In this document: one piece after another, positions 996 to 23,313 of the stretch
Numbering within the stretch: the first letter of the stretch is position 1
How the letters are laid out: each line of letters starts with the position of its first letter
IMG/VR virus record: IMGVR_UViG_3300044609_000146
Span: 1-36,537 of that record
Reading direction: 5' to 3' (one strand)
Length of the DNA: 36,537 bases
DNA from: a virus
The notes under the pieces: model-generated
What the model was told of the DNA's origin: nothing
Seen by the model: the letters and a program-made list of their open reading frames with translations, nothing else
Databases searched by the model: none
Made by a program: the position numbers and the translations under genes

Positions 996-1342
996 ACCTA
1001 GCTGCCCTAGAATCGGAAGTTTTCCTTCTGGGTCACTGGAAAGACTATGATGAACTTGAATCGAGTCTTTCTATGCAAGAATTGATAGCTACATTAGGTG
1101 CGATGCATGACAAAGAAAATCGTCAAAATAAGTTTTTAGCTGCCATCCAAGGAATTGACTTGTCTGAAAACAGTTCTAGTAAAACTGCTGCGGATGCCCC
1201 CTCAAGTCTTTCAGAAGTAAATGCAAGAGCGGAAAGAAGATTAGGTGGAGACAATAACTCTGCCTATGCTTTAGAGTTTGGCATAAGTGCAAGCGATGGT
1301 CTTGGATATGAAGTATTGGGGTTGGAAGATTTAAATGGCTAA
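663..1342 (+). CDS. Tail assembly chaperone, -1 frameshift fusion (gpGT-like)
   Basis: The second product of the chaperone locus, read as 663-956 joined to 956-1342: 98 residues in the first frame plus 128 in the -1 frame, 226 in total. The -1 frame opens just after a TAA at 944-946 and runs to TAA 1340-1342. Its coding character is clear (W-K-D-Y-D-E-L-E-S-S-L-S-M-Q-E-L, then a charged and serine-rich tail). An ATG at 1073 exists inside it but has no good ribosome site, so expression by frameshifting is more likely than independent initiation. In lambda, gpGT bridges the tape measure and the tail tube subunits. The end overlaps the tape measure start by 8 bases, giving translational coupling. 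Confidence 0.85.
950..1006 (+). promoter_or_regulatory. Programmed -1 ribosomal frameshift signal
   Basis: The heptamer CCCAAAC (950-956) is in the right phase: the zero frame reads CCA-AAC and the -1 frame reads CCC-AAA, so both tRNAs can re-pair. Eight bases later a stem forms between GGCAGCT (965-971) and AGCTGCC (1000-1006), extended by AGG/CCT (973-975 with 997-999) across one bulged C. The spacing fits a stimulatory structure. A competing pairing, CAGCT (967-971) with AGCTG (980-984), could modulate it. Confidence 0.9.
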
Positions 1343-4300
1343 TATTAATGCCCAGTTTAATTATTCAGCCAACTTTGGTCCAGTTATTGGACAAATGCAA
1401 AAGCTTGCTGCTGAAGCAAACGTATTAAACAATACATTACAAAATCTTGATAAGCAGTCTGTAGGATTAAAATCAAACCTTGCAGGTGCATTTGCATCTG
1501 ACATTGGAAAAATCGGTGGCTGGAATGCCAAAATGGTTGAACTCACTGACTCTGTTGATCAGTTTGGGCAATCCCTTTTAAAGCAAAAACTTACATTAAA
1601 GCAATATGCACAAGAAGCTATTGGTGCATTTAGCAAGTCGTCCAACGCCCATAAACTTGCAGTTCGTGAAGTAGCCAGAGAAATGTCACAACTTGTAACT
1701 CTTGGCAAGGGCATGGACGGTAAGCAAATGGGTATGATGATTACCCCTGCAACAATTAATCTTAAAGACTTTAATACTCAACTTGCTGTGTCTCAAAAAC
1801 AGTGGTCTATATTTAACAACCTTGTTCAAGATGGAACAACTCATTTAATTAACTTTGGTAAGAATACCCAGTGGGCTGGTCGTCAGATCACCGTTGGTCT
1901 TACCGTTCCACTTACCATTTATGGAAATGCAGTTTCTAAGATTTTCCGTGAAGTTGATGCTGAATTAACTAGATTTAAAAAGGTTTATGGTTCGGACTTA
2001 GGTTCAACATCTGCAGAAGTAACGGAGAGAATGGTAAGCGATGTTCGTAATATCGCTATAGAATTTTCAAGGTCATTTGGAATTGCAGCAAAAGAAACAG
2101 CATCTTTGGCTGCAGATCTTGCAGCAACAGGTTTAGAGGGACAAAGACTTCTTTCTTCACTAAGAGAAACAACAAGACTTGCTGTACTTGGTGATGTTTC
2201 AAATCAAGATGCAATGAAAACAACCTTATCTTTGCAGAATGCATTTAAGATAAGCACTGATGAACTTGCCAGTTCCGTAAACTTCCTTAACGCTGTAGAA
2301 AACCAAACTTCTCTTTCTTTGCAAGACCTAACAACAGCAATTCCAAAAGCTGGACCAGTCGTTAAATCATTGGGTGGTGACGTAAAAGACCTATCGCTAC
2401 TGATGGTAGCCCTAAAAGAAGGTGGTATCTCAGCAGCAGAAGGTGCTAACGCCCTAAAGTCTGGTATGGCATCTCTTATCAATCCGACAAAGCAAGCAAC
2501 TATGACTGCAAAGCAGTACGGCATTGACATTAATGGAATTGTTCAGGCAAATCGTGGACAACTTATGCCAACAATTATTGCCTTCCAACAACAATTACAG
2601 CTACTAGATGATTTTGGAAAAGCACAAGTTATTGAAAATGTTTTTGGTAAATATCAGTTTGCTCGTCTCTCTGCACTATTTGATAACCTAAATGCAAGTG
2701 CTTCTCAAACAAATGCGGTACTTGGCTTGATGGGTAAATCAAATAAAGAACTTGCAGCAACAGCATATCAGGAAATGGACACCTTGATGAATAGTTCCTC
2801 AAAGCGTTTCCAAAGAGCTATCGAAGGCATTAAAGCACAATTTATTTCTATTGGTGGATCTATTACTGCTTCGATTACCCCAATTCTTGAAAACCTAATG
2901 GGTAAGATTGGAAAAGCTATTGAGTTCTTTCAAAACCTTCCAAAACCAGTAAAATCATTTATTAAGGTAGCAACAGGCTTAACTGCTATTGCTGGTCCAA
3001 TTATTATGATGGTTGGTATTTTCTCTAACTTCCTTGGATATATTGGCAAGGGTGCTATGGGTATGGTTAACCTTGGTAGACGTATGGCAGGTATTCCAGT
3101 TCAAAAGTTTGAGATGCTTACCGATACTCAGATTATGGCTCAAAAGGCAACGAACGAACTCTCCCTATCTTTTGATAGAGAAAGATCAAGCGTTGAAAGA
3201 CTTAACCAAGCACTTGGTATATATAGACAAAATCTTGTAGATGCTATAGCTTTAAATCCAGCATTTGTAAATAGACAGATGCCTTCCGTTCCAGCAACTC
3301 CAACAGCCCAAATGCAAAGAGGTGGATCTGCTTGGGTTCCAGGCTCTGGAGATGGAGATAAGGTTCCAGCAATGCTGGAGCCAGGAGAGTATGTTGTAAA
3401 TAAAAAAGCAGCAGCTAAATATTCTGGAACATTAGATCAGATGAACTTTCAGTCTGCACCACGCTTTCAAAAGGGTGGAAGAATGCCAGGATATGCAGAC
3501 ACATCAATGTTGCCATATGAAAGTGTACTAGGTCAAAGCAAAAAAGCAGAACCGTTTATTGGTCCACTTCCTCAAATATCTTATGGTGTTCAAGGAACTT
3601 ATCGTCCAGGCGGATACACCCCAATAGTAGAATATCCATTTTCTTCTGTGGCTTCTGCAGAATCATTCCAAGCTACAGATCCAAGAAAGTATGGTGGACG
3701 CTCATCAAGAATTACAAGAGACATTAATGACCCACAACAAAAGGCTTATGCTGACTGGATAGAGGGACATAACTCAAATCAGTTTAGAACTGGAACTGGT
3801 GTTATGAAGAGAATGGACATGGAAGGTCATCGTGAGCAAATGCTCAAGAGTATGGGTCCAATATCTGAAAATATTCCCTTATACAGAGGAACGGTTCTTA
3901 AAGAAAAGGGTGCCAATGAATTTTCTGGTGTAGGAGCAAGAGAATTGCTTATGTACATCAAAAATGGAATGTTTGAAAAGGCTATGGGAAAGAAAATCCA
4001 GTGGTCAGACATGCAATCATTTTCTTCAAATCCAAATATTGCAAGTTACAATAAGTTTATTGAGTCTTGGACAAACCCATCAAACACCAACTCAAAGAAG
4101 GCAGCAGATAGACAATTAGCAAGCATGGATATGCTTCCTATTGTATTTAGACTTGCAAGTGCTCAAGGACAAAATGGATTTAACCTATCTTCAAGGGCTA
4201 TGGTTCAAGAAGTTATGGGTAAGCCTGTTGATGAAAAAGAATGGGTATTAAATAATCCATCTGGAACTATTACTGGTATCCGCCAAGATATGGGAACAAA

Positions 4301-7300
4301 GAATTACATTGTTGATCTTATGCAAAAGGGTGGTAGAGTACAAAGCCATGCAGGAAAGTCTTTCCCAGGTGCCCCTACTGTTGATGTTAACCCATTTAAA
4401 CTTGTGGGAATGGGTGGTGTAAATGAAGACAACCCTATTGCTGGATTAGATAGACAATCTGGAATGTTCTACAAGCAAATATCAAATAACAGGGGCATGA
4501 ATACAAATGCTATGCTTGCAGAAGCAGTATTTAGCCAATTATATAGAAGTGGATTATTTGGTAGCAATGTTACTGGTATAGACCAAAGAGTATACAACGC
4601 AAACACAGGAAATAAAACTATGCCTGTTCTTGGTTCAAGTTTTGTTCAAGGGTTAAAAACTGGAGAAAAACTATTTGATAGCAAGTCTGCTCAACCCAAC
4701 AGACCTACTCCTTTTGCTAAGGGTGTTGTTAATAAAAAGGCAATAGAGGGAATGCTTGCTTCACAGATACTTGGAAATGCAGATACTCATAGTGGTAATT
4801 TTGGAATTTCTGGTGGCAAGATTATGATGCTTGATAACACTGCAAACCTATTTACTGATGCTACTGGAAACCAAAGAAGAACCTCTAAGGCACTAAATGA
4901 TTTCTCTTACAACCCAGATACTGCAGGTTTGGATCGTGCAGGAACACAGGCTTATGGAAAGATGGGGTCTAAAAAAGCAGACTCTCATGTTATTGGATAC
5001 TTAAATAGCGTATTGGGTAATCTTAACTCTGGAAACTATATTGCTCAGTCAATTAATTTAGCAACTCAAGGTTCACCAGAACTTCTTAAAAATCTTAATA
5101 ATTATGCTATTAAAAAATCTGGTGGTGCTTCAAAGAGCTATCAAGAACTTTTAACCTCAATGATCTCTATGAGAACACAAAAGTTAATGCAAGAGTTCTA
5201 CCTTGACGAAGATGACATGTCTCTTGTAGGATCTGACACTAAAAAGATGAGACTTCAAAGTAATGCTGAAGAATCATTTAGAGCACCGTTCCAAAAAACA
5301 GACAAAGAATATGAAACCGTTTACAAGTGGATTGGTGGAGAACTTGACTACTTTAGAAGAAGAAAGAATGTAAAGGGTCGTTGGACTGACTCTGAAAAGT
5401 TTGATGCAGAAAGATACCAACAACTTCTTAGCATAATGCGTTCTGTTCCAGAGGGAACAAAAATGATGAGAGGCTCTATTCTTAATCCAGGAATGTCTGG
5501 AGAGATGTCTAAAGAAGCCCAACTTGCAATGCTTACAGCTATTCAAACTGGTGACTATGGAAGTCTTTATGGAATGGATATATCGTTTAATGATTTTGCC
5601 TCATTTGCCTCCGACTTCATGGGACCTGAATATGGTCCTAGAGGAATGAAGGGTGGAGTAAGTAGATTCTCACAGGTTGCATATAATAAGTTGTATAGAG
5701 GAGTGCATAACAGAAACACCGAAAAGGGTAGATTCTTTGATGACATAGAAAGAAGTAGGGCTACTGGAAAAGAATCAAAGTATGGCTCTTCCCCAGTTAT
5801 GTATGATTTTACAGCAGGACCAAATACTCAAGGTAGAGATATTTCGATGGGAGACCCGTCAACTGGAGCACCATATCCAAAGTATCGTGATAGCTGGGTA
5901 AAGGAAGTACCAGATGAAATCAATGAGATCCTTACCTATGGAGCAAAAGGAACAATTACTGGGGTGTCCTCCGACCTACAATCACGTCAGCCAATTATTC
6001 ATATGCAGGGCAAGCAAATGGGTGGAAGAATTAATGGGTATGCAGATATGTCTAAGGTATTTGCACATATTGTTCCAGGAACAGATCTTGGATCAAATAT
6101 TAATTTAAAGTATCCTGTTGGGTTAGACATTCTTAAAACAACAAACTCAAAACTAAATAGTGACTTTGTAAATAAAAAAGATCTTATAGGTGAGTTTAAT
6201 AAACCAGGATCAACAGAAACAATGAAACAGGCTTTTAGGGCATTTTCAAAAAAGAATCCAAAGTCAGATATTAAGCCAGGATTTGAGAATATAATAAGAG
6301 ATTCTGCAGTCAGGGGTCTTTCAGATGCACCTAAAATGATTAATGATCCAATATTATATTCTGAATCATTAAAAGAGGAATCAATTAAAAAAGCATTTAA
6401 TACTTTTAAGAGACATAAGTATCTTGCTGGATATAGGGCAAATGTTAGCCCAACAACTCTTAGAGAAGCTGGATTTATAGAGGGTCCAGGATCAATTTTT
6501 ACATCTCCAGATGGACAACTTAAAGTTAAAGCTATTAAGGTAGGTAAAAGAACTAAGCTTGTAGATCCAACAACAGGGGAAAATATTTTAGGTCCAACCT
6601 CGCAGTCATCAGATACAAGATCTTTTCCTTCTGGCAAGCCTTTGCTTAATTATCTGGCAAATAGCAAACAGATGGGTGGTCGCATTAAGGGATACGCATC
6701 CGAAACAGCATCTTGGGCAAAGAAGGCAGCAGCACCTAAAGCATATGCAGGTGTCTTACAGGGTATTCCTAATTGGGCTACAAAGCCAAATGAATACCAG
6801 GCAATCGTTGAAGCATTGCGAGCTGCAGGTATTCCTGAGTCAGATAGACTTGCATCTTACTACATTCAAGATGTGTTGGCACATATTAATCCTTCCACTA
6901 CAAATGCTAATGGTATATATGAAAAGGTTTGGGCTGCAGCTAACTTGATGAAAGACTCTCAGGTTTACAATGTATTCCTTGAGACTTTAAATAGCAGAAA
7001 AGATATTGGTGGATTATTAAATCCTTCTACCGTCTCAAGAGTTGCTGCTGCATCTGGTCTACCAACATCTGTAGTCCAAGCAGAACTTACAAAGCTTGCA
7101 GACGGTGTTCATCCAAAGACAGCCACTGGTGCAAAGGTTATGATGACTCTTGCAAGAATGTTCCCATCCAAAACTTCTCCAGGAATGCCTATTGCTGTTG
7201 CAGCAGGTATGAGTGCAAGACTACAAGGTAACTTCTATGACACTCTTGCACAAAGAGCATTGCCTTCAAACCTTCCAAACATAACTGTAAGGTCCTATGA

Positions 7301-10300
7301 TCCAAAGGGTGCTGGAGCACCAACATCAAGCACACAGGGCTCTAGGGTGGGCTCAACAGGCTTAATCATGCCATCTGGAGCTATTAGACCTTCTATGGTA
7401 ATGCCAAACATTCAAAGTATCCCGTCTGCAGCAGGTGGAACAGGAACAAGTGCAACCGTTAAGGTTGATGGAATGGGTAACGTATTGTCAAATGGTATTG
7501 ATGATATGGTTGCTAATACCGTTACAGGTCAGCCTATTGCGGTATCTAGCAAGGAACTTCTTGCAATCGGACCTAACGGTGGTATTGCAGGTGTAACATC
7601 TCCAGGAGATGAAGCTAGAGGCAAAATTGTTCATCCTATGGGAACAGCACTAATGCGTGGAAAGAACTTCCAGCAAAAAAGAATTAAGGGATTTGACCAA
7701 ACAACTCAACAGTTTGGTGTACCTGGCGGTTTAATTGGTCCAGCTACTAGGGAACAAGCAGCACAAAATACAGAACCTGTATATGAAGGTCAAATAAATC
7801 CTGGAAGAATGGATAAGTTTGCAGCAAGCATTGGTTTCTTAACAAGTGGTATGTATACTTTAAATACTGCGTTCCAACAATTTACTTCATCTACTGCAGA
7901 AGGTGCAGATAAGTTTACAAAGTTAGCAGCAGCAACCACTCTTGCAATTACTGGCATACAGGGTGTTTCTCAAATGCTTGTTGATAATGGAAAAATCCAA
8001 GCAATGCAAAATAAGGCACAAATGATGCAAGGTCCAGGATCTAGTAAAATGTCTAGCGGTATGGGTAAAATGCTTGGTGTGGGTTCAAAGGCTCTCGGAA
8101 TGCTAGGTGGTCCGATGGGAATGATTGCAACATCTGTTGCTATTTCTGCTGTCAACAAGGGTATTGCAATGTATCAAGCTGCGGTACAAAAAGCAAAAGC
8201 TGCAGGTGCAGGAATGTTCAAAGATCCTATCGAAGGTGCAAAGCTTCTTGGTATTACCTTAAAAGACACTTCTGCTATTGCTCAAACATATTCTAAAATT
8301 GCTGAAGGTCTTGGAATGAAGGGTACTGGTAAAGGTGCTTATGATAAAACCTATGCTGACGTTGTTAAAAAAGATTATGGCGACTTAATAGATAGCTTAA
8401 AGATTGTATTGAATCAGGAAGAAAAGAGAAACAAGCTTTTACTTACATATATCAATCTTACCCAAAAGGGATTTAACGCAGCAGACGCAAAAGAATATGT
8501 AAAAGAAATTGCTCGTCAATCTGGATCCATGTCTGCATTTAACAGTATAAACTTAGATAATCTTAAAACTAGTACTGAGGTAGCAAATCAAGTTGTTGCA
8601 TCCACAAAAGCACTTATGTCAAGCATTGGAAAAGTTGATTCAAACCTTATTGGAAAATATATAAATAAAAAAACTGGAGCAATTTACAACACGTTTGAAG
8701 AAGCTGAAGCTGCAAGAAAACAAGACGCAAGCTTTGTTCAAAGAAATTTTGCAACAGCAAATGATACATTTGGTCCAAGCAATTATGCAAAAATTGATGC
8801 AAATACAGGAAAAACATTAAGTGCTGGAATTTTGGGATCTATGAACTCTTTAGGATTAGATGAAAAACAAATGGGAGAGGCTATTGCTGGAGCATTAAAA
8901 ACTGCATATTCAATAGCAGCAACAGATCCGTCAGCAGCAAACCAAGCAGGTGCAATGATTTTAGAGCATCTTGCTAGTGGTACAGCAGAGCAACAAGAAG
9001 CAGCAAATGCATCAATACTAGCAATGATGACAGAGGCTGGTGCAAGCAATGCTGACTTAGGATACAACTTTGTTCTTGGTGGAGGTCTTACCGAAATGGC
9101 AAATGATGTTGAAGAAAAGTTTGGAGGTATGGGTCCAAAATTCTCTAATGCAATACTTTCAGCTATTCAATCTGGCAACATTGATATGGTAAATGAGATG
9201 TTAGAGCAATCTGGTGGAGATCCAAGCCCAGAAGTAATGCAAGATTTTGTAAATAAAGTAGCAAAAATACAGGCATTAGCAAAGATTGACTTAGAAGTTG
9301 ACATTCAGCTAGAACAAACAAAGAAGCAACTTGAAGATATAAAGACAGAACTTGGAAAAACCTTTGATGCTTTAATTGCTTCAAAGCAAGCAGAAATAGA
9401 CCTTGAAAATAAGCGTCACGAACAGTCGATGAAAAATCTTGATAGAGAAGCACAGAGAATTGCACTTAAAAAAGAAGCACTTTCAAAGAATACTGAATAC
9501 TATCTTGATCAACTTCAAAAAGAAAAAGAAGCAGAAGACTATTATAGCAATCAAAGAAAAACTGGTTTGGGTGGGCTAAAGGCTCTTTCTCAGGGAGATG
9601 TCTTTGGATTTATTGGTGCTCAAATGGAAGCTGCAACTACTGCAGATCAGTTTGGTAGAGACCGTTCAATACAAAATATTAAAGATACTTCAGATGCTGC
9701 ACAGGAAAAATTAGATCAAGAATTAAAGGGAATTGAAGATAGAAAAGCGGCAGAGGCAGCAAGACACGAAGCAGAGCTTAAAAATATTGAAGCAGAAATA
9801 GAATTTTTAAATCAAAAAAGAGCAATATCTGTTGGTGCTGCAGAAAAGGCAATATCAAAAATTGAAAAGGTTGTAGCAATGAGCCCAACCGATCCTGGAT
9901 ATCAGGCTGCGGTTCAGGAAGCTATGAGCCTAGCAACTACTGCTGGAATGGAAGCCTCTCAGGTATTACAAAATGTAGATACGTCATCTATGACCAAAGA
10001 AGAACTTGTTAACTTTAATAAAGTAAAACAAGACCTTGGTCTAGCTGTTAGCACATTCACCGCAGACACAGAAACCGCTCTTGATGTTATTGGAAAAGAT
10101 GTTGAAGAAATTACACAAAACATTGCAGATTCTCTTGGAGCAACTGGAGATATATTAAGTGGAGTTATAGAAACTTTAAATCAGCCAGTAGATCCAAATT
10201 CTGTAATAGCAAAAATTGAACAATTAGCTGCAATTAATGTTGGAACTGCTCCTGGAGGTGTTACTGGTCAGGCTGGTGCTGGAAATGCTTCTATTACTCC

Positions 10301-10958
10301 TACGGCTACGGGTGGCAGCACCATACCTGGTGGACCACCTGCAACACCAAAGGGTGCAAGTGCAGGAAGCTGGTATCAAGATCCAAGCACAATGTTATGG
10401 TGGAAGTATGGAACAAATAATAAATGGGAGTCTACTACTGGTCAAAAAAATAAGCCACAATTTGTAAATGGTTATATTAAAGAGGCTGGGTCTTGGACAC
10501 CTATGGCTGATGGTGGAATGCTATCTGGTCCAGGAACTGGAACATCCGATTCAATTCCAATTATGGCATCAAACGGAGAGTATGTACTGAGAGCAGATGT
10601 TGTAAAAAGAATTGGAAAAGCAAAACTAGATCAAATTAATAGTGGAAATTTTGCTTATGGTGGAATGGTTGGATCAATGCCATCAATGCCATCCGCCCCA
10701 GGAATGGCTGCTGGTGGATTTGTTGGAAGCTCTGCACCATCTGCACCTAAGTACAATGTTCCAACCGCTGGAGTATCTGCGAGCCCATCACCAATCGCAC
10801 AGATGGCAGGTGGTGGAATGGTGGGTGGATCATCAGCATCTCACTCTGCACCAACAACTAACTTTAACTTTAATGGAGCAGGTATGGATATGGTTATGCA
10901 TCATGTCAATAAGCAAATGGGTGGTAGAATTAATAGTAATTCTAGGAGAATCGGTTAG
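1335..10958 (+). CDS. Tail tape measure protein with embedded enzyme-like modules
   Basis: A 3207-residue protein that sets tail length and occupies the tail lumen. Residues about 160-470 match the TP901-type tape measure core (A-A-D-L-A-A-T-G, A-I-P-K-A-G-P-V-V-K, L-L-M-V-A-L-K-E-G-G-I-S). Hydrophobic segments lie near 538-578 and 2252-2280, and strong coiled coil near 2648-2850. Residues about 712-1780 are not tape-measure-like: they hold two ADP-ribosyltransferase-like domains, one kinase-fold-like domain and unknown modules, several bounded by G-G-R linkers. Two related G-E-Y-V-V/L motifs occur near 660-705 and 3060-3110. Near 3013 there is a DUF2510-like W-Y-x-D-P motif. The C-terminus is glycine/serine/methionine rich and ends in another G-G-R copy. 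The start at ATG 1335 overlaps the chaperone frame by 8 bases; a GGAAG sequence lies just upstream. The core role is near certain; the module functions are inferred from motifs. Confidence 0.95.
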   Translation: MANINAQFNYSANFGPVIGQMQKLAAEANVLNNTLQNLDKQSVGLKSNLAGAFASDIGKIGGWNAKMVELTDSVDQFGQSLLKQKLTLKQYAQEAIGAFSKSSNAHKLAVREVAREMSQLVTLGKGMDGKQMGMMITPATINLKDFNTQLAVSQKQWSIFNNLVQDGTTHLINFGKNTQWAGRQITVGLTVPLTIYGNAVSKIFREVDAELTRFKKVYGSDLGSTSAEVTERMVSDVRNIAIEFSRSFGIAAKETASLAADLAATGLEGQRLLSSLRETTRLAVLGDVSNQDAMKTTLSLQNAFKISTDELASSVNFLNAVENQTSLSLQDLTTAIPKAGPVVKSLGGDVKDLSLLMVALKEGGISAAEGANALKSGMASLINPTKQATMTAKQYGIDINGIVQANRGQLMPTIIAFQQQLQLLDDFGKAQVIENVFGKYQFARLSALFDNLNASASQTNAVLGLMGKSNKELAATAYQEMDTLMNSSSKRFQRAIEGIKAQFISIGGSITASITPILENLMGKIGKAIEFFQNLPKPVKSFIKVATGLTAIAGPIIMMVGIFSNFLGYIGKGAMGMVNLGRRMAGIPVQKFEMLTDTQIMAQKATNELSLSFDRERSSVERLNQALGIYRQNLVDAIALNPAFVNRQMPSVPATPTAQMQRGGSAWVPGSGDGDKVPAMLEPGEYVVNKKAAAKYSGTLDQMNFQSAPRFQKGGRMPGYADTSMLPYESVLGQSKKAEPFIGPLPQISYGVQGTYRPGGYTPIVEYPFSSVASAESFQATDPRKYGGRSSRITRDINDPQQKAYADWIEGHNSNQFRTGTGVMKRMDMEGHREQMLKSMGPISENIPLYRGTVLKEKGANEFSGVGARELLMYIKNGMFEKAMGKKIQWSDMQSFSSNPNIASYNKFIESWTNPSNTNSKKAADRQLASMDMLPIVFRLASAQGQNGFNLSSRAMVQEVMGKPVDEKEWVLNNPSGTITGIRQDMGTKNYIVDLMQKGGRVQSHAGKSFPGAPTVDVNPFKLVGMGGVNEDNPIAGLDRQSGMFYKQISNNRGMNTNAMLAEAVFSQLYRSGLFGSNVTGIDQRVYNANTGNKTMPVLGSSFVQGLKTGEKLFDSKSAQPNRPTPFAKGVVNKKAIEGMLASQILGNADTHSGNFGISGGKIMMLDNTANLFTDATGNQRRTSKALNDFSYNPDTAGLDRAGTQAYGKMGSKKADSHVIGYLNSVLGNLNSGNYIAQSINLATQGSPELLKNLNNYAIKKSGGASKSYQELLTSMISMRTQKLMQEFYLDEDDMSLVGSDTKKMRLQSNAEESFRAPFQKTDKEYETVYKWIGGELDYFRRRKNVKGRWTDSEKFDAERYQQLLSIMRSVPEGTKMMRGSILNPGMSGEMSKEAQLAMLTAIQTGDYGSLYGMDISFNDFASFASDFMGPEYGPRGMKGGVSRFSQVAYNKLYRGVHNRNTEKGRFFDDIERSRATGKESKYGSSPVMYDFTAGPNTQGRDISMGDPSTGAPYPKYRDSWVKEVPDEINEILTYGAKGTITGVSSDLQSRQPIIHMQGKQMGGRINGYADMSKVFAHIVPGTDLGSNINLKYPVGLDILKTTNSKLNSDFVNKKDLIGEFNKPGSTETMKQAFRAFSKKNPKSDIKPGFENIIRDSAVRGLSDAPKMINDPILYSESLKEESIKKAFNTFKRHKYLAGYRANVSPTTLREAGFIEGPGSIFTSPDGQLKVKAIKVGKRTKLVDPTTGENILGPTSQSSDTRSFPSGKPLLNYLANSKQMGGRIKGYASETASWAKKAAAPKAYAGVLQGIPNWATKPNEYQAIVEALRAAGIPESDRLASYYIQDVLAHINPSTTNANGIYEKVWAAANLMKDSQVYNVFLETLNSRKDIGGLLNPSTVSRVAAASGLPTSVVQAELTKLADGVHPKTATGAKVMMTLARMFPSKTSPGMPIAVAAGMSARLQGNFYDTLAQRALPSNLPNITVRSYDPKGAGAPTSSTQGSRVGSTGLIMPSGAIRPSMVMPNIQSIPSAAGGTGTSATVKVDGMGNVLSNGIDDMVANTVTGQPIAVSSKELLAIGPNGGIAGVTSPGDEARGKIVHPMGTALMRGKNFQQKRIKGFDQTTQQFGVPGGLIGPATREQAAQNTEPVYEGQINPGRMDKFAASIGFLTSGMYTLNTAFQQFTSSTAEGADKFTKLAAATTLAITGIQGVSQMLVDNGKIQAMQNKAQMMQGPGSSKMSSGMGKMLGVGSKALGMLGGPMGMIATSVAISAVNKGIAMYQAAVQKAKAAGAGMFKDPIEGAKLLGITLKDTSAIAQTYSKIAEGLGMKGTGKGAYDKTYADVVKKDYGDLIDSLKIVLNQEEKRNKLLLTYINLTQKGFNAADAKEYVKEIARQSGSMSAFNSINLDNLKTSTEVANQVVASTKALMSSIGKVDSNLIGKYINKKTGAIYNTFEEAEAARKQDASFVQRNFATANDTFGPSNYAKIDANTGKTLSAGILGSMNSLGLDEKQMGEAIAGALKTAYSIAATDPSAANQAGAMILEHLASGTAEQQEAANASILAMMTEAGASNADLGYNFVLGGGLTEMANDVEEKFGGMGPKFSNAILSAIQSGNIDMVNEMLEQSGGDPSPEVMQDFVNKVAKIQALAKIDLEVDIQLEQTKKQLEDIKTELGKTFDALIASKQAEIDLENKRHEQSMKNLDREAQRIALKKEALSKNTEYYLDQLQKEKEAEDYYSNQRKTGLGGLKALSQGDVFGFIGAQMEAATTADQFGRDRSIQNIKDTSDAAQEKLDQELKGIEDRKAAEAARHEAELKNIEAEIEFLNQKRAISVGAAEKAISKIEKVVAMSPTDPGYQAAVQEAMSLATTAGMEASQVLQNVDTSSMTKEELVNFNKVKQDLGLAVSTFTADTETALDVIGKDVEEITQNIADSLGATGDILSGVIETLNQPVDPNSVIAKIEQLAAINVGTAPGGVTGQAGAGNASITPTATGGSTIPGGPPATPKGASAGSWYQDPSTMLWWKYGTNNKWESTTGQKNKPQFVNGYIKEAGSWTPMADGGMLSGPGTGTSDSIPIMASNGEYVLRADVVKRIGKAKLDQINSGNFAYGGMVGSMPSMPSAPGMAAGGFVGSSAPSAPKYNVPTAGVSASPSPIAQMAGGGMVGGSSASHSAPTTNFNFNGAGMDMVMHHVNKQMGGRINSNSRRIG
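3720..4319 (+). other. ADP-ribosyltransferase-like domain 1 inside the tape measure (about residues 796-995)
   Basis: The order of motifs follows the R-S-E class of ADP-ribosyltransferases. A helical lead-in (A-D-W-I-E-G-H) precedes L-Y-R-G with the NAD-binding arginine R851. Then comes S-F-S-S-N-P (S895-P900), standing for the S-T-S strand. Last is D-E-K-E-W-V-L (E967-K968-E969), the ExE of the catalytic loop, followed by strand-like S-G-T-I-T-G-I. All three signature positions are present and properly spaced, so activity on a protein target is plausible. This is motif reading only; a profile or structure search is needed to name the family. Confidence 0.7.
4380..5219 (+). other. Kinase-fold-like domain inside the tape measure (about residues 1016-1295)
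   Basis: The segment carries an ordered set of protein-kinase-fold hallmarks. M-F-Y-K-Q supplies a candidate ATP-binding lysine (K1047). A-E-A-V-F-S-Q-L-Y supplies a helix-C glutamate (E1063). G-N-A-D-T-H-S-G-N-F-G supplies the catalytic Asp and metal-binding Asn (D1150, N1155), and M-L-D-N (D1167) stands for the second metal Asp. The D-x-H-x-G-N form is closest to atypical kinases of the HipA, phosphatidylinositol-3/4-kinase and FAM20 groups. A helical region follows up to about 1295. The substrate is unknown. Confidence 0.6.
5262..6002 (+). other. ADP-ribosyltransferase-like domain 2, diverged copy, inside the tape measure (about residues 1310-1556)
   Basis: This region repeats the plan of the first copy. 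A helical lead-in (F-D-A-E-R-Y-Q-Q-L-L) precedes M-M-R-G-S-I-L (R1379), then F-A-S-F-A-S (S1423, S1426), then D-E-I-N-E-I-L followed by K-G-T-I-T-G-V. Aligned on the shared G-T-I-T-G, the catalytic loop reads I1529-N1530-E1531 where copy 1 has E-K-E. The second Glu is kept and the first is lost, unless E1528 compensates by a register shift. It may therefore be inactive, or active with altered target specificity. Confidence 0.55.
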
Positions 10959-19041: not shown

Positions 19042-22000
19042 ATGGCAGAAATTTTTTCATTCACAAAACCTCTATCAAATCTTACTGGTATTTCTAATAC
19101 AAATGGATCCTTTAGCATTTTTCCAGAGCAAGTTTCATCATTAAATTTTGATGGAACTGCAACAAAAAAAGAAATTAAAACAAAGGTATCAGATATAAAG
19201 CCTGGACAGACTGTTATGGTTTCTGAGTCGTACTACAATTCAAACTCGGTATTTATAACGAAGGTTGAATCAAGAAATGGATTTATAAATGATAATCCAG
19301 AGCAACCAGTATTAAAGTATTACCTGTATCATCTTTCAGAGTATTCTATGGAACAGCCCTTTACATATAATGCAAATTATGGAGACTCTTATAATGGAGA
19401 CACAGAGCTTTATGTAATAAGAGACGATATAGACAATTTTGAACTTGGAACTGATGGTTGGGCTTTAACCAATAATGGAAATGCAATATTTTCTAATATT
19501 TTTGCTAGAGGAAGAATTGAAGCTACTTCGGGAAAAATTGATGGAAACTTAGAGGTTGGAAAAGACTCAGTAGGATCACCCTTAGCAAAAATTGGTTCTG
19601 ATATATTTGAAGGCAAACCCTTTGATTCGGTACAAGAAAAACATAGCGGTATTTTATTAGATAAAAATAACTACTTACTATCTTATCCAGCAAATGTTCC
19701 TATAGATATTAACAGTGTTGTTGCTACAAACTTATCCGAAACTGGGTATTTCTATTCCGCAACTTTTACCCTTCCCCTTGCCACAGGAGAGTTAAACACA
19801 CTAAGAGTTGGGGACTCCATAGAGTTATCTGGATTTACTAATTCAGAAATAAAATCCTTAAACGGGGTACACGAGGTAATTGCTGTTGGAACAAATACAT
19901 TTACGATACCCATGAGATACGAGGCTGATCTTGCATCTCCAGTAACCATAAATGTTAGTGTTAGAAGTTTTGCCTTAGACAGACCCTATATACTTACAGC
20001 AATGACTTTATCTTCGGTACCTGGTACTATAAATAATTCAACAGTTAAAATATATACAGATGACCACAGTTTTTTTTCAACTGGCATGACGATTAGCCTA
20101 GAGTCGTTTTTGGAACCGCTTTCTCCGCTAAATGGAGAATTTGAAATTGTTGATAAAGGAGAAGGATATGTTTCTGTAAGGACACCATTAATTGCTGCTG
20201 GAACATATACATCATCTCTTGGAAACCTTGTACTATTTTCAAAAATCCATAAGTTTAAAGTTGGAGATAATGTTAATTTTATGTCGTTCTCGTCTGAAAC
20301 TGGATCTTTAAAATTAACTGGAACAATTAATGCTCATTCTGGAAACTTTATTAATCAAGTTTTTGTTGGTCAAGCAGCTACTACCTTTTCTGTCTTTAGG
20401 AAAAAGCTACTTAACAATATTGCAACCTTAAGTACTATAGAGCCGCATAGTTTTAGCGTTGGTGATAGTGTCACCGTTACTGATGTTGATAGCACATTTG
20501 ACGGAACATATACGGTTAAACAAACACCCACAGCACTTACTTTTACTTATGATAAAGTAGCATCACCTGTTACAGAAATTGACTTGGTAGAGTTTGGTTA
20601 TGTATCAAGTGATTCAAGTGTGGATGGTACGATTAAGGTTGGTATTGCAGATACTGGAATTAGCATCGATGGTACTAACGACCCAGAAACATCTGCCATA
20701 TATGCAGGTGAAGGAAACTTTAAAAATGCAGATACTGGTTTCTTTATGGATGCATCGGGAAGATTTAGTATCGCTGATCAGTTATATTTTGAAGATGGAA
20801 ATCTTACTGTTGGTGGAACTGTAACTGCAAGTGCGTTTGCTATTGATGCTAATAACTATTGGAATACCCCAGGAAACCTTGGTGACTTTAGAGTAGGAAG
20901 TGCCAACTCTTATCTTTTCTGGAATCAAACAAATAGCCCAAGTGCAGGAGATGGAAACCTTGAGGTAAAGGGTACAATAACTGCCACCGCTGGTGTCTTT
21001 AGTGGAAACATTCAAACTACTGGAAAAATATATTCTGGAACACTTGATGGCAGTGGATTATTAACATCTGGAATTGAAGTAGCAAGTACTGGAATTAAGG
21101 GAATTATTGGTGGAATAGCATCTTTCATTCTACCAGCCGATGGAGTAACAAAGCCAACTATTACAAACTTTGAAGTTCTTAATGCTCAAATTACTGGAGA
21201 TAAGACAAATGCTTTTCTTGTTGCAGGAGATGTTGGTGTTACTGCAAACAATGTTGTTGTTCGTGGTTATCGTGGCGGAACCGATCAAACCGCAGCAATA
21301 TACAATACAAAAAATGGAACAGCAACAACCTATGCAGGAGGAACTGGATTTTATCTTAACGATAATGGTTTCTTTAAAGTTGGCACAGATACTTCAAATG
21401 CTAAGTTTGATCCAACAGCAAATAGTAATGCTGGATTATTTACTGTTACTGGAGAAATTCAAGCAACATCTGGATATATTGGTGGAACAACTTCTGGATG
21501 GAAGATTGAGTCAAGTTTATTAAGTAATGGAATATTTGGATTGTCTGCACCAGTACAAACACTGGGTCAGGGAACTATTTCTCCAATAACCCACGCAGTA
21601 ACAGCAGTTTCAAATAAAGTATTTACATCTACTGGTCACACTTTTCTGGTTGGCGATATTGTAAGAACTAAAAATATGGGTTCTGGTGGATCTCCTGCTG
21701 GTGGATATAATGGGGTATTTACAATTAATGCAGTTACTACAAATACTTTTACAGTAACAACCTCAACAACAGGAACTAGCACACCTGTTAGTGGATCTGC
21801 TACTGGGGAAAATGTTATAACACTAACCTCTCCAACAATTACTCCATTAAAAAGTATGTCTATTACTGGTAATACTATTTCTAGAGGAACATACATCGCC
21901 AGCATTTCTGGTTCAGGTCCATACAGATTAACACTTTCTGAGGTAATTGATAGAGATTATATTATCGGTTCTCAGAGTGAAGTTTCGGGAACTGCGACTA

Positions 22001-23313
22001 TTTCTAACTATTCAATTTACTCAGGAAATGCAACAAAGGAATTATCTAAGTTCAAGGTTGACTATGAAGGTAATGTGTTTGCAAAGACTGGAACATTAGG
22101 AAGTCTTAAGCTTAGTGAGGCTGGGCTATATGCAAAGTCAAACATTGTAGGAACTGGGTATTACCAGATGGGAATGGTTGTAAATCCAGTCGGTTTTGAG
22201 TCTTCTGGTTTTTGGGTAAGAAAATTTGATCAATCCAATATTTTTGCTGGACAGGTAAGTTTAGAGCCTAGTGGAGTTTTTTGGACAAGTCAAAACTCAA
22301 CAAGTGCAGCTGGTATATATGTAGAGTCAACTGGAGATTTTAGAATATTTGCAGGTAAGGGTGTAGGCAACGCAACTGGATCATCTCTTTTGATGAGTTC
22401 TGGAAACATGTCAAGACCTTGGATGTATGCACAAGCATCAGAATATATAGGACCAGGGAATAGTAATCCAATTCTTGTAGATTTTATAGATAGCACCCTG
22501 GAGATAACTTATTCGGATCCAGATGTGGGTGGTAATGGAACTAGATGGGTTTCAACCGCTGGAAGTTTTTATGCAGCTGGAGGTATTCAGGTAGAAGGAA
22601 GCGGAACTGCAAATACTTTTTATGCTCCAAACTGGTTTAGATCAACTGGGGATAGTGGTTGGTATAGCGAAACGTATGGCGGTGGCATCTATATGATTGA
22701 TACTACTTGGGTTAGAACATATAATGACAAAAACTTTTATTCAGCTGGCGTAATTAGGGCTCAAGCTGGTCTGCAGTCAAATGCTAGTATGACTGTAGAA
22801 GGAAATATAACAATTACTAATGGAAGTCTAATTGCTAATGGAACTGGAACAGGAACCACTAAGCTACAAACCCTTGATATGGATGGACATATCTACGGCT
22901 CTGGTGTTATGTATGATAACGTAATGACAGGAAGAACCATGAGAATTGCAGCTTCACCTTACATATTTGGAACAGCTGGTTCAAGTAGGAGAATAAAAAG
23001 CTATATAGATCCAATAGACCTTACAGATGAATTAATTTCTAAGTATTTACAAATACAACCAGTTTCGTATTTTTATAACGCAATGGTTGAGGGTGTTCCA
23101 GAAACAGAGCTAGAGGGAAAAGTAAGAGAAATTGGTTTAATTGCAGAAGATCTTCAAGACCTAGGATTCTTTGGTCTTATAAATGTTGATGATGAAGGAA
23201 TTGCTGATTATGTTCATTATGATAAAATAAGCATTTATAATATAAAGATGATTCAAATGCAACAAGAAAGAATAAATCAACTAGAAAATAGGCTTGCAGC
23301 ATTAGAATCATAA
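19042..23313 (+). CDS. Tail fibre with C-terminal S74 autocleaving chaperone domain
   Basis: A 1423-residue protein starting at ATG 19042, one base after the previous stop. Residues about 225-510 and 850-920 contain repeated FCCH-like beta domains (L-R-V-G-D-S-I-E-L-S-G, H-S-F-S-V-G-D-S-V-T-V, H-T-F-L-V-G-D-I-V). Between and after them are fibre repeats of the form V-x-G-x-I-x-A-T-x-G, as in L-E-V-K-G-T-I-T-A-T-A-G and F-T-V-T-G-E-I-Q-A-T-S-G-Y-I-G-G, typical of trimeric beta-structured fibres. The last 110 residues are an S74 intramolecular chaperone: S1314-S-R-R-I-K1319 supplies the Ser/Lys dyad, followed by I-G-L-I-A-E-D-L and a terminal coiled coil (I-N-Q-L-E-N-R-L-A-A-L-E). In this family the chaperone trimerises the fibre and then cleaves itself off before the serine, so the mature fibre should end near residue 1313. 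Confidence 0.9.
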   Translation: MAEIFSFTKPLSNLTGISNTNGSFSIFPEQVSSLNFDGTATKKEIKTKVSDIKPGQTVMVSESYYNSNSVFITKVESRNGFINDNPEQPVLKYYLYHLSEYSMEQPFTYNANYGDSYNGDTELYVIRDDIDNFELGTDGWALTNNGNAIFSNIFARGRIEATSGKIDGNLEVGKDSVGSPLAKIGSDIFEGKPFDSVQEKHSGILLDKNNYLLSYPANVPIDINSVVATNLSETGYFYSATFTLPLATGELNTLRVGDSIELSGFTNSEIKSLNGVHEVIAVGTNTFTIPMRYEADLASPVTINVSVRSFALDRPYILTAMTLSSVPGTINNSTVKIYTDDHSFFSTGMTISLESFLEPLSPLNGEFEIVDKGEGYVSVRTPLIAAGTYTSSLGNLVLFSKIHKFKVGDNVNFMSFSSETGSLKLTGTINAHSGNFINQVFVGQAATTFSVFRKKLLNNIATLSTIEPHSFSVGDSVTVTDVDSTFDGTYTVKQTPTALTFTYDKVASPVTEIDLVEFGYVSSDSSVDGTIKVGIADTGISIDGTNDPETSAIYAGEGNFKNADTGFFMDASGRFSIADQLYFEDGNLTVGGTVTASAFAIDANNYWNTPGNLGDFRVGSANSYLFWNQTNSPSAGDGNLEVKGTITATAGVFSGNIQTTGKIYSGTLDGSGLLTSGIEVASTGIKGIIGGIASFILPADGVTKPTITNFEVLNAQITGDKTNAFLVAGDVGVTANNVVVRGYRGGTDQTAAIYNTKNGTATTYAGGTGFYLNDNGFFKVGTDTSNAKFDPTANSNAGLFTVTGEIQATSGYIGGTTSGWKIESSLLSNGIFGLSAPVQTLGQGTISPITHAVTAVSNKVFTSTGHTFLVGDIVRTKNMGSGGSPAGGYNGVFTINAVTTNTFTVTTSTTGTSTPVSGSATGENVITLTSPTITPLKSMSITGNTISRGTYIASISGSGPYRLTLSEVIDRDYIIGSQSEVSGTATISNYSIYSGNATKELSKFKVDYEGNVFAKTGTLGSLKLSEAGLYAKSNIVGTGYYQMGMVVNPVGFESSGFWVRKFDQSNIFAGQVSLEPSGVFWTSQNSTSAAGIYVESTGDFRIFAGKGVGNATGSSLLMSSGNMSRPWMYAQASEYIGPGNSNPILVDFIDSTLEITYSDPDVGGNGTRWVSTAGSFYAAGGIQVEGSGTANTFYAPNWFRSTGDSGWYSETYGGGIYMIDTTWVRTYNDKNFYSAGVIRAQAGLQSNASMTVEGNITITNGSLIANGTGTGTTKLQTLDMDGHIYGSGVMYDNVMTGRTMRIAASPYIFGTAGSSRRIKSYIDPIDLTDELISKYLQIQPVSYFYNAMVEGVPETELEGKVREIGLIAEDLQDLGFFGLINVDDEGIADYVHYDKISIYNIKMIQMQQERINQLENRLAALES
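19720..21780 (+). repeat. Array of FCCH-like beta domains in the tail fibre
   Basis: At least three clear copies of the pattern hydrophobic-x-V-G-D-x-V/I, then a glycine-containing turn (L-N-G, F-D-G or Y-N-G), then T-F-T, lie at about 19795-19910, 20440-20560 and 21630-21770, with two weaker copies at about 20050-20220 and 20250-20400. The copies are well diverged in DNA, so this is not a recent tandem duplication. A related copy sits in the distal tail protein at about 11040-11240. Confidence 0.65.

Follow-up and report, generated by a model that had tools for sequence, protein, structure and literature searches.

IMG/VR virus record IMGVR_UViG_3300044609_000146 is a single contig of 36,537 bases, all of which was analysed here as one window by sequence comparison and structure prediction. 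Close to its start lies an open reading frame (ORF) of 3207 residues, the longest of the record, which encodes a tail tape measure protein (TMP) and in which a block of four exchangeable modules, some with predicted enzyme folds, interrupts the tape measure sequence. Its identity as a TMP is indicated by an N-terminal TMP domain (Pfam PhageMin_Tail, E = 4.4e-27, residues 241-438), by matches to PHROG tail-length TMP families (residues ~20-628 and 3057-3126) and by a position after the tail chaperones. The order of genes, with two small ORFs ahead of the 3207-residue ORF, matches that in the Stanwilliamsviridae, a family that includes Streptomyces phages whose TMPs are 31-36% identical to the N-terminal ~550 residues; these small ORFs (663-995 and 1073-1342) occupy the place of the tail assembly chaperones. 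The two Streptomyces TMPs compared (2075 and 2133 residues) gave no match to the module cassette. Past the shared N-terminus, one of them consists of a coiled coil followed by an end that, judged by eye, resembles a cell-wall enzyme. Hosts of phages with related scaffolds include Streptomyces and Gordonia, and because of this our guess is that the window phage infects an actinobacterium.

An earlier note, made from the letters of this DNA, had held that residues ~712-1780 are not tape-measure-like and that they lie in one open frame with the tail-lumen protein. Both claims hold. The frame is open throughout and matches TMP domains, and residues 714-1780 comprise four modules (A-D) of non-tape-measure sequence with sharp edges, which fall within ~11 residues of the limits given in that note (712, 1010, 1305, 1565 and 1780). 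The modules measure ~200-330 residues each, and the scaffold and both ends of the TMP around them are conserved. Each module begins at or near a linker with the consensus Q-x-GGR[IVM]x[GS][YH]A[DE]xS. The linker between B and C has degenerated in the window, and L003 (related TMP loci are given L-numbers), which is without module B, has GGRVQSHADES in its place. Beyond the variable array a 'core' module extends the array region to residue ~2116. A further core insert is present in L007 (residues ~2224-2358) and in L008, with a Cys/His-rich stretch, CGDSGGTIASGRPCSNPVDNLGERCYLHKK, that may bind zinc. The motif GGxxxGPGxGxSDxIPAMLxxGEYVV stands on the N-terminal side of the array (residues 663-710, ~3321-3464) and again near the C-terminus (residues 3060-3110, ~10512-10664), and is recognisable in distant TMPs too. 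The features of the locus are collected in Table 1.

Table 1 Features of the tape measure gene in the window (positions count from the first base of the record, residues from the start of the TMP)
Feature	Positions	Strand	Residues and details	Basis
TMP ORF, carrier	1335..10958	+	3207 aa; uninterrupted frame	
Conserved TMP scaffold, N-terminal part	1335..3434	+	1-700	85-94% identity among close relatives
Hydrophobic segment upstream of array	2949..3056	+	539-574	Kyte-Doolittle scan
Linker 1	3474..3506	+	from 714; GGRMPGYADTS	linker comparison
Module A, predicted R-S-E ADP-ribosyltransferase	3474..4328	+	714-998; core 3699-4328	AlphaFold 2, Foldseek, alignments
Module A putative catalytic residues	3885-3887; 4017-4019; 4233-4241	+	R851; S895; E967-x-E969	alignments
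Linker 2	4329..4361	+	from 999; GGRVQSHAGKS	linker comparison
Module B, kinase-like	4329..5249	+	999-1305; K1047, E1063, D1150-x4-N1155, D1167	conserved pattern
Linker 3, degenerate, between B and C	5250..5276	+	from 1306; RLQSNAEES, without GG	linker comparison
Module C, second, diverged ADP-ribosyltransferase (putative)	5250..6020	+	1306-1562; R1379, S1423, E1531	alignments, BLAST
Linker 4	6021..6053	+	from 1563; GGRINGYADMS	linker comparison
Module D	6021..6674	+	1563-1780	kin to swapped modules E, F and C-terminal half of I
Linker 5	6675..6707	+	from 1781; GGRIKGYASET	linker comparison
'Core' module after variable array	6675..7679	+	in all relatives reaching it	85-88% identity, 7 loci
Weaker hydrophobic segment downstream of array	8091..8153	+	2253-2273	Kyte-Doolittle scan
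C-terminal copy of linker motif	10920..10955	+	from 3196; opens final 12 residues, GGRINSNSRRIG	linker comparison

We then compared the array with those of close relatives. The scaffolds of these phages are 81-94% identical, yet their module sets differ: A-B-C-D in the window, B-C-E in L001, A-C-F in L003, A-G-C-C2-E in L007, A-G-C-C2-H in L008, A-G-C-C2-I(D) in L010, A-J-K in L011 and A-G-B-J-I(D) in L012, with TMP lengths of 2857-3571 residues. In 13 junction comparisons, DNA identity of ~90-100% fell to chance (~27%) no further than 15-30 nucleotides from the GGR codons. Some modules are also clearly younger than the scaffold that surrounds them in the same pair of phages, as judged by synonymous divergence (dS). 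Between the window and L003, dS is 0.87 (interval 0.73-1.07) for the scaffold, whereas module A has 0.33 (0.21-0.47) and module C 0.37 (0.25-0.51); between the window and L001 it is 0.68 (0.58-0.81) for the scaffold and 0.26 (0.17-0.35) for B. The pair formed by the window and L007 does not show this, because its module and scaffold intervals overlap. Every module is under purifying selection, with ratios of non-synonymous to synonymous divergence (dN/dS) of 0.08-0.43. These comparisons indicate that whole modules are gained, lost and replaced between related phages at a fixed linker.

The linker itself is maintained at the level of the protein, since GGR is identical in all 48 linker copies from nine TMPs whereas the three codons behind it occur in nine combinations. 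An account of the linker in terms of DNA only was rejected on the same ground. Being kept as protein, the linker probably works in the protein as well as forming a recombination seam, and could be a hinge, a tube-packing element or a processing site.

The same organization extends well beyond the close relatives. When a diverse scaffold alignment was used for scanning, at least 588 related TMPs were recovered, and the best 80 of these loci were examined. In this wider set, TMP lengths span ~1180-3960 residues, and many pairs share 70-90% identity across ~950 N-terminal residues, after which they are unrelated over at least one module length; between L057 and L058, for example, the differing stretch contains a module termed J. 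Enzyme folds within TMPs also appear to recur in separate lineages, because L112 and L113, whose scaffolds are ~49% identical to that of the window, carry an ART-like (ADP-ribosyltransferase-like) module of their own (LYRG...SFTSD...EQES, residues ~1425-1560; L112:9194-9736). It is an independent ART-like module with an R-S-ExE pattern. L055, a contig from a metagenome-assembled genome labelled as a cyanobacterium (CAINGU010000031.1), encodes a TMP of 1774 residues with a scaffold 37% identical and a different short insert after the same anchor motif; the label could stem from mistaken binning of the contig.

Module A is, on the evidence of its predicted structure, an R-S-E ART fold, as the earlier note had proposed from a residue pattern. 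An alignment of 16 ART modules has invariant W, G, G, S, E and G positions and the arginine in 15 of 16, although paralog groups are only ~23% identical, and the probability that R, S and E would all land in conserved columns by chance is ~0.0015. A model of A was built with AlphaFold 2 (AF2) from the paralog alignment (A, C, the C2 modules from L007, L008 and L010, and three further modules from L026), with a mean predicted local distance difference test score (pLDDT) of 77.4 and a predicted template modelling score (pTM) of 0.77. Searched with Foldseek against the PDB, this model gave 68 matches at E <= 1e-3, and the 50 that were listed are all R-S-E ARTs. VIP2 is the best of them (1.3e-5), followed by C3 enzymes, Plx2a, Vis and CDTa; amongst viral models, the matches were VIP2 proteins of Gordonia and Mycobacterium phages, T4-type Alt, ModB and MuF-ART fusions. 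An AF2 run that took in the entire cassette, with a mean pLDDT of 36, served as a negative control, and gave nothing below 1e-3 in Foldseek. In the model of A, R63 lies in an early strand (61-68) that adjoins the strand with S107 (105-109), while E179-x-E181 opens a later strand (181-185). This placement of R, S and E fits the layout of the R-S-E ART family. Module A does not look like helical tape measure, and the relatives retain the catalytic residues, the two points on which the earlier note had said that its reading could fail.

BLAST comparisons identify module C as a homologue of both A and C2. Its R74, S118 and E226 (numbered in the C alignment) are invariant, which bears out the earlier suggestion of a second, diverged ART, though one without the first glutamate of the ExE motif.

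The remaining two modules are less easily placed. For module B the earlier note had suggested a kinase-fold pattern. The pattern stood, as K49, E65, D152-x4-N157 and D169 are invariant in the three known copies, down to 74% identity. B carries a signature, GNADTHSGNF, that resembles the catalytic loop of HipA. A search of the records with the HipA_C model gave no match, and B itself had neither a Pfam match nor a sequence match in the PDB. In the same kind of slot, more than 20 TMPs of relatives carry module J, in which K79, E90, D159 (D-x4-N), N164, D172 and G174 (DxG) are invariant across 18 sequences. A comparison of B with J aligns their catalytic loops (E = 0.003, with a probability of only 10%). 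By these motifs, both B and J look kinase-like.

For module D, to which the earlier note had given no identity, AF2 returned a mean pLDDT of 60-84 across much of the module in the whole-cassette run, which is usable for D only, and no Foldseek match fell below 1e-3. In L010 and L012 a relative of D is found fused to an HxGH-type nucleotidyltransferase to form module I (L010:5647-6885, L012:4316-5560). The L010 nucleotidyltransferase matches a PHROG cytidyltransferase (E = 8e-24), the module of L012 has cyanophage homologues (33% identity, E = 3e-13), and a homologue in the TMP of L066 (L066:13973-14494) scores above the curated cut-off of Pfam CTP_transf_like. Such cytidylyltransferase-like modules stand beside ARTs in TMPs or replace them, and a tie to the metabolism of nicotinamide adenine dinucleotide (NAD) or nucleotides is possible. 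Single-module searches of A-D in Pfam, PHROG, NCBIfam and PADLOC returned nothing useful, tblastn with the cassette gave no match in 50,697 phage records, and PDB sequence profiles gave no meaningful match for A, B, C or J.

Elsewhere in the window, positions 19042-23313 encode a tail protein of 1423 residues that ends in an S74 chaperone domain and matches Shufflon_N slightly under the cut-off.

The strongest evidence as to what the array does is, in our view, the exchange of modules as units at a fixed linker, together with the recurrence of enzyme-fold modules in the middle of the TMP in many relatives. Weighing these comparisons with the structural models and the analogy to T4 Alt, we favour, at a probability of roughly 60%, the reading that effector modules with enzyme folds form a swappable array within the TMP and would be ejected along with it, much as Alt is injected. 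A fuller version, in which a conserved tail ruler offers a slot for ART, kinase-like, nucleotidyltransferase and other modules and the set is ejected to act before phage gene expression, seems to us evenly balanced between true and false. On such a model, the modules, being segments of the TMP, would be carried inside the tail tube in an extended or partly folded form, would exit the tail together with the TMP as infection starts, and would refold at or across the membrane. The ARTs would then modify host proteins using NAD and the kinase-like modules would phosphorylate host targets, in a manner close to that of head-borne T4 Alt. Since ARTs need NAD and kinases ATP, both of which are cytoplasmic, the array would be expected to be exposed to the cytoplasm or to pass into it; the hydrophobic stretches that flank it would permit a membrane-anchored loop. 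The pattern of swapping fits selection from varied host targets or defences.

Several observations weigh against ejected effectors of this kind. Template modelling scores (TM-scores) for the Foldseek matches of A are moderate (0.35-0.51 on query length), because the model has low-confidence loops, and A matches no ART model in Pfam or NCBIfam. The latter, which we count as weak counter-evidence, reflects a limit of detection and not a defining feature of the module; the ADPrib_exo_Tox model likewise found no match in the records. In C the residue two positions before the retained last glutamate is I, and in C2 it is M, so neither has an ExE or QxE motif, and one L026 module (L026a; L026:7772-8518) keeps S and ExE while lacking the aligned arginine, so that this copy is possibly decayed. 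Judging from such changes, some ART copies may be inactive or altered in specificity. The link from B to HipA is weak, as the catalytic loops coincide in hhalign at p = 0.024, and a kinase fold was not obtained with confidence for B because of the low pLDDT of the whole-cassette model. More generally, the reading leaves unexplained how ~1000 residues of globular modules would be packed into the tail tube, and no further hallmark of effector delivery (a signal, a chaperone or a processing protease) was found.

Some of the same observations could be accommodated by other explanations. The modules could be host-specificity or channel elements that contact host membrane or cytoplasmic proteins for DNA entry, with folds that bind without catalysis. 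Hydrophobic segments do flank the array, replacement in a fixed slot is also typical of host-range elements, and a link between the HK97 TMP and a host protein is on record, as cited in PMC13277306. We nevertheless consider this unlikely, given that R, S and E are among the most conserved positions of the ART paralogs and that J keeps K, E, D, N and DxG invariant at 26-51% identity. Conservation of this sort also tells against the idea that the modules are length filler, in which recombination adds or removes ready-made protein of near-constant size because TMP length sets tail length. TMP length does vary in both the close and the wider set of relatives, as filler would have it; but mere filler would have no need of intact active sites, and the purifying selection on the modules and the recurrence of particular enzyme folds leave such an origin with only a slim chance.

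Two further alternatives concern when and in what form the modules would act. As tail genes in general are expressed late, the TMP is produced late in infection, and ejection of the modules is itself only inferred, so they might do their work while still in the producing cell, ahead of tail assembly or in the course of it, on host enzymes or virion proteins for instance. However, an enzyme meant to work late would be ill served by fusion to a protein locked in the tail lumen until infection, and Alt and similar phage ARTs carried in the virion act early (PMC5512222); we regard late action as improbable. We are about equally doubtful that the TMP is a polyprotein cut by a protease at GGR into separate virion or host-cell proteins and a shorter tape measure proper. 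The GGR motif bounds the modules and opens the last 12 residues, and is fixed in the protein while its codons vary, all of which would suit a cleavage site, but no matching protease was identified and the boundary at residue 1306 is without GG. Finally, since the window comes from one IMG/VR contig, a chimera of metagenome assembly was considered. It was rejected, its chance being negligible: independent contigs assembled from different samples show these modules and joins again, the frames are intact and the junctions fall on the coding linker.

An array of ejected effector modules, the reading we prefer, would share features with several known systems. T4 Alt and ModB and the VIP2-type phage ARTs have the same fold and R-S-E active site as module A, and in the MuF-VIP2 fusions of actinobacteriophages an ART is likewise carried on a virion protein (PMC7302621; PMC9206674). 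In contrast to Alt and the MuF fusions, the carrier here is a tail tape measure and not a head protein, and, unlike in Alt, ModB and the VIP2 ARTs, there are several ART copies in interchangeable modules whose sequence lies under detection by Pfam ADPrib_exo_Tox. Polyvalent proteins (Iyer et al. 2017, PMC5512222) also join disparate effector-like domains, including ART and kinase, in one polypeptide, for which genome-linked delivery was proposed. The window TMP resembles them in combining two putative ARTs with a kinase-like module, as do its relatives with a nucleotidyltransferase. It differs in that its ARTs are of the R-S-E type, which the describers of polyvalent proteins exclude, and not of the Tox-ART-HYD2 (H-Y-D) type (PMC5512222), and in that no zincin metallopeptidase was found here. 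Tape measures go unmentioned in that paper (PMC5512222).

Closer to the tail, the effectors Sle1 and Tme (PMC13277306) have a TMP-related carrier with variable functional domains in a tail-like particle. They are part of contractile injection systems of bacteria, their variable domains are C-terminal and they have DUF4157 either as a domain or as a partner, whereas here an internal multi-module array lies in a phage TMP. The tape measure of mycobacteriophage TM4, according to its citation in PMC13277306, has a peptidoglycan hydrolase motif, and so, like similar cell-wall enzymes in TMPs, also represents an enzyme domain within a phage TMP; enzymes of that type act on the cell wall during penetration, whereas ART, kinase-like and nucleotidyltransferase folds would need cytoplasmic NAD or nucleotides. 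In the open-access literature we found no description of a phage TMP that bears modules of the ART, kinase or nucleotidyltransferase kind. Domain shuffling is known in phage proteins (Smug et al. 2023, PMC10684548), in a survey in which genuine recent mosaicism in TMPs was not confirmable (PMC10684548). The TMP junctions here are clean by comparison, and provide clear cases of recent domain shuffling in TMPs.

Most of the effectors that phages are known to inject are carried in the head, as in T4 Alt, the MuF fusions and the polyvalent proteins. If our reading is right, a tape measure with exchangeable modules would constitute a second, tail-borne route for effectors, and would be the phage-side counterpart of the tape-measure-derived effectors of contractile injection systems. 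It would also account for the large differences in TMP length and sequence between close phage relatives, and would offer many modules shaped by selection, which probably acts against regulators or defences of the host.

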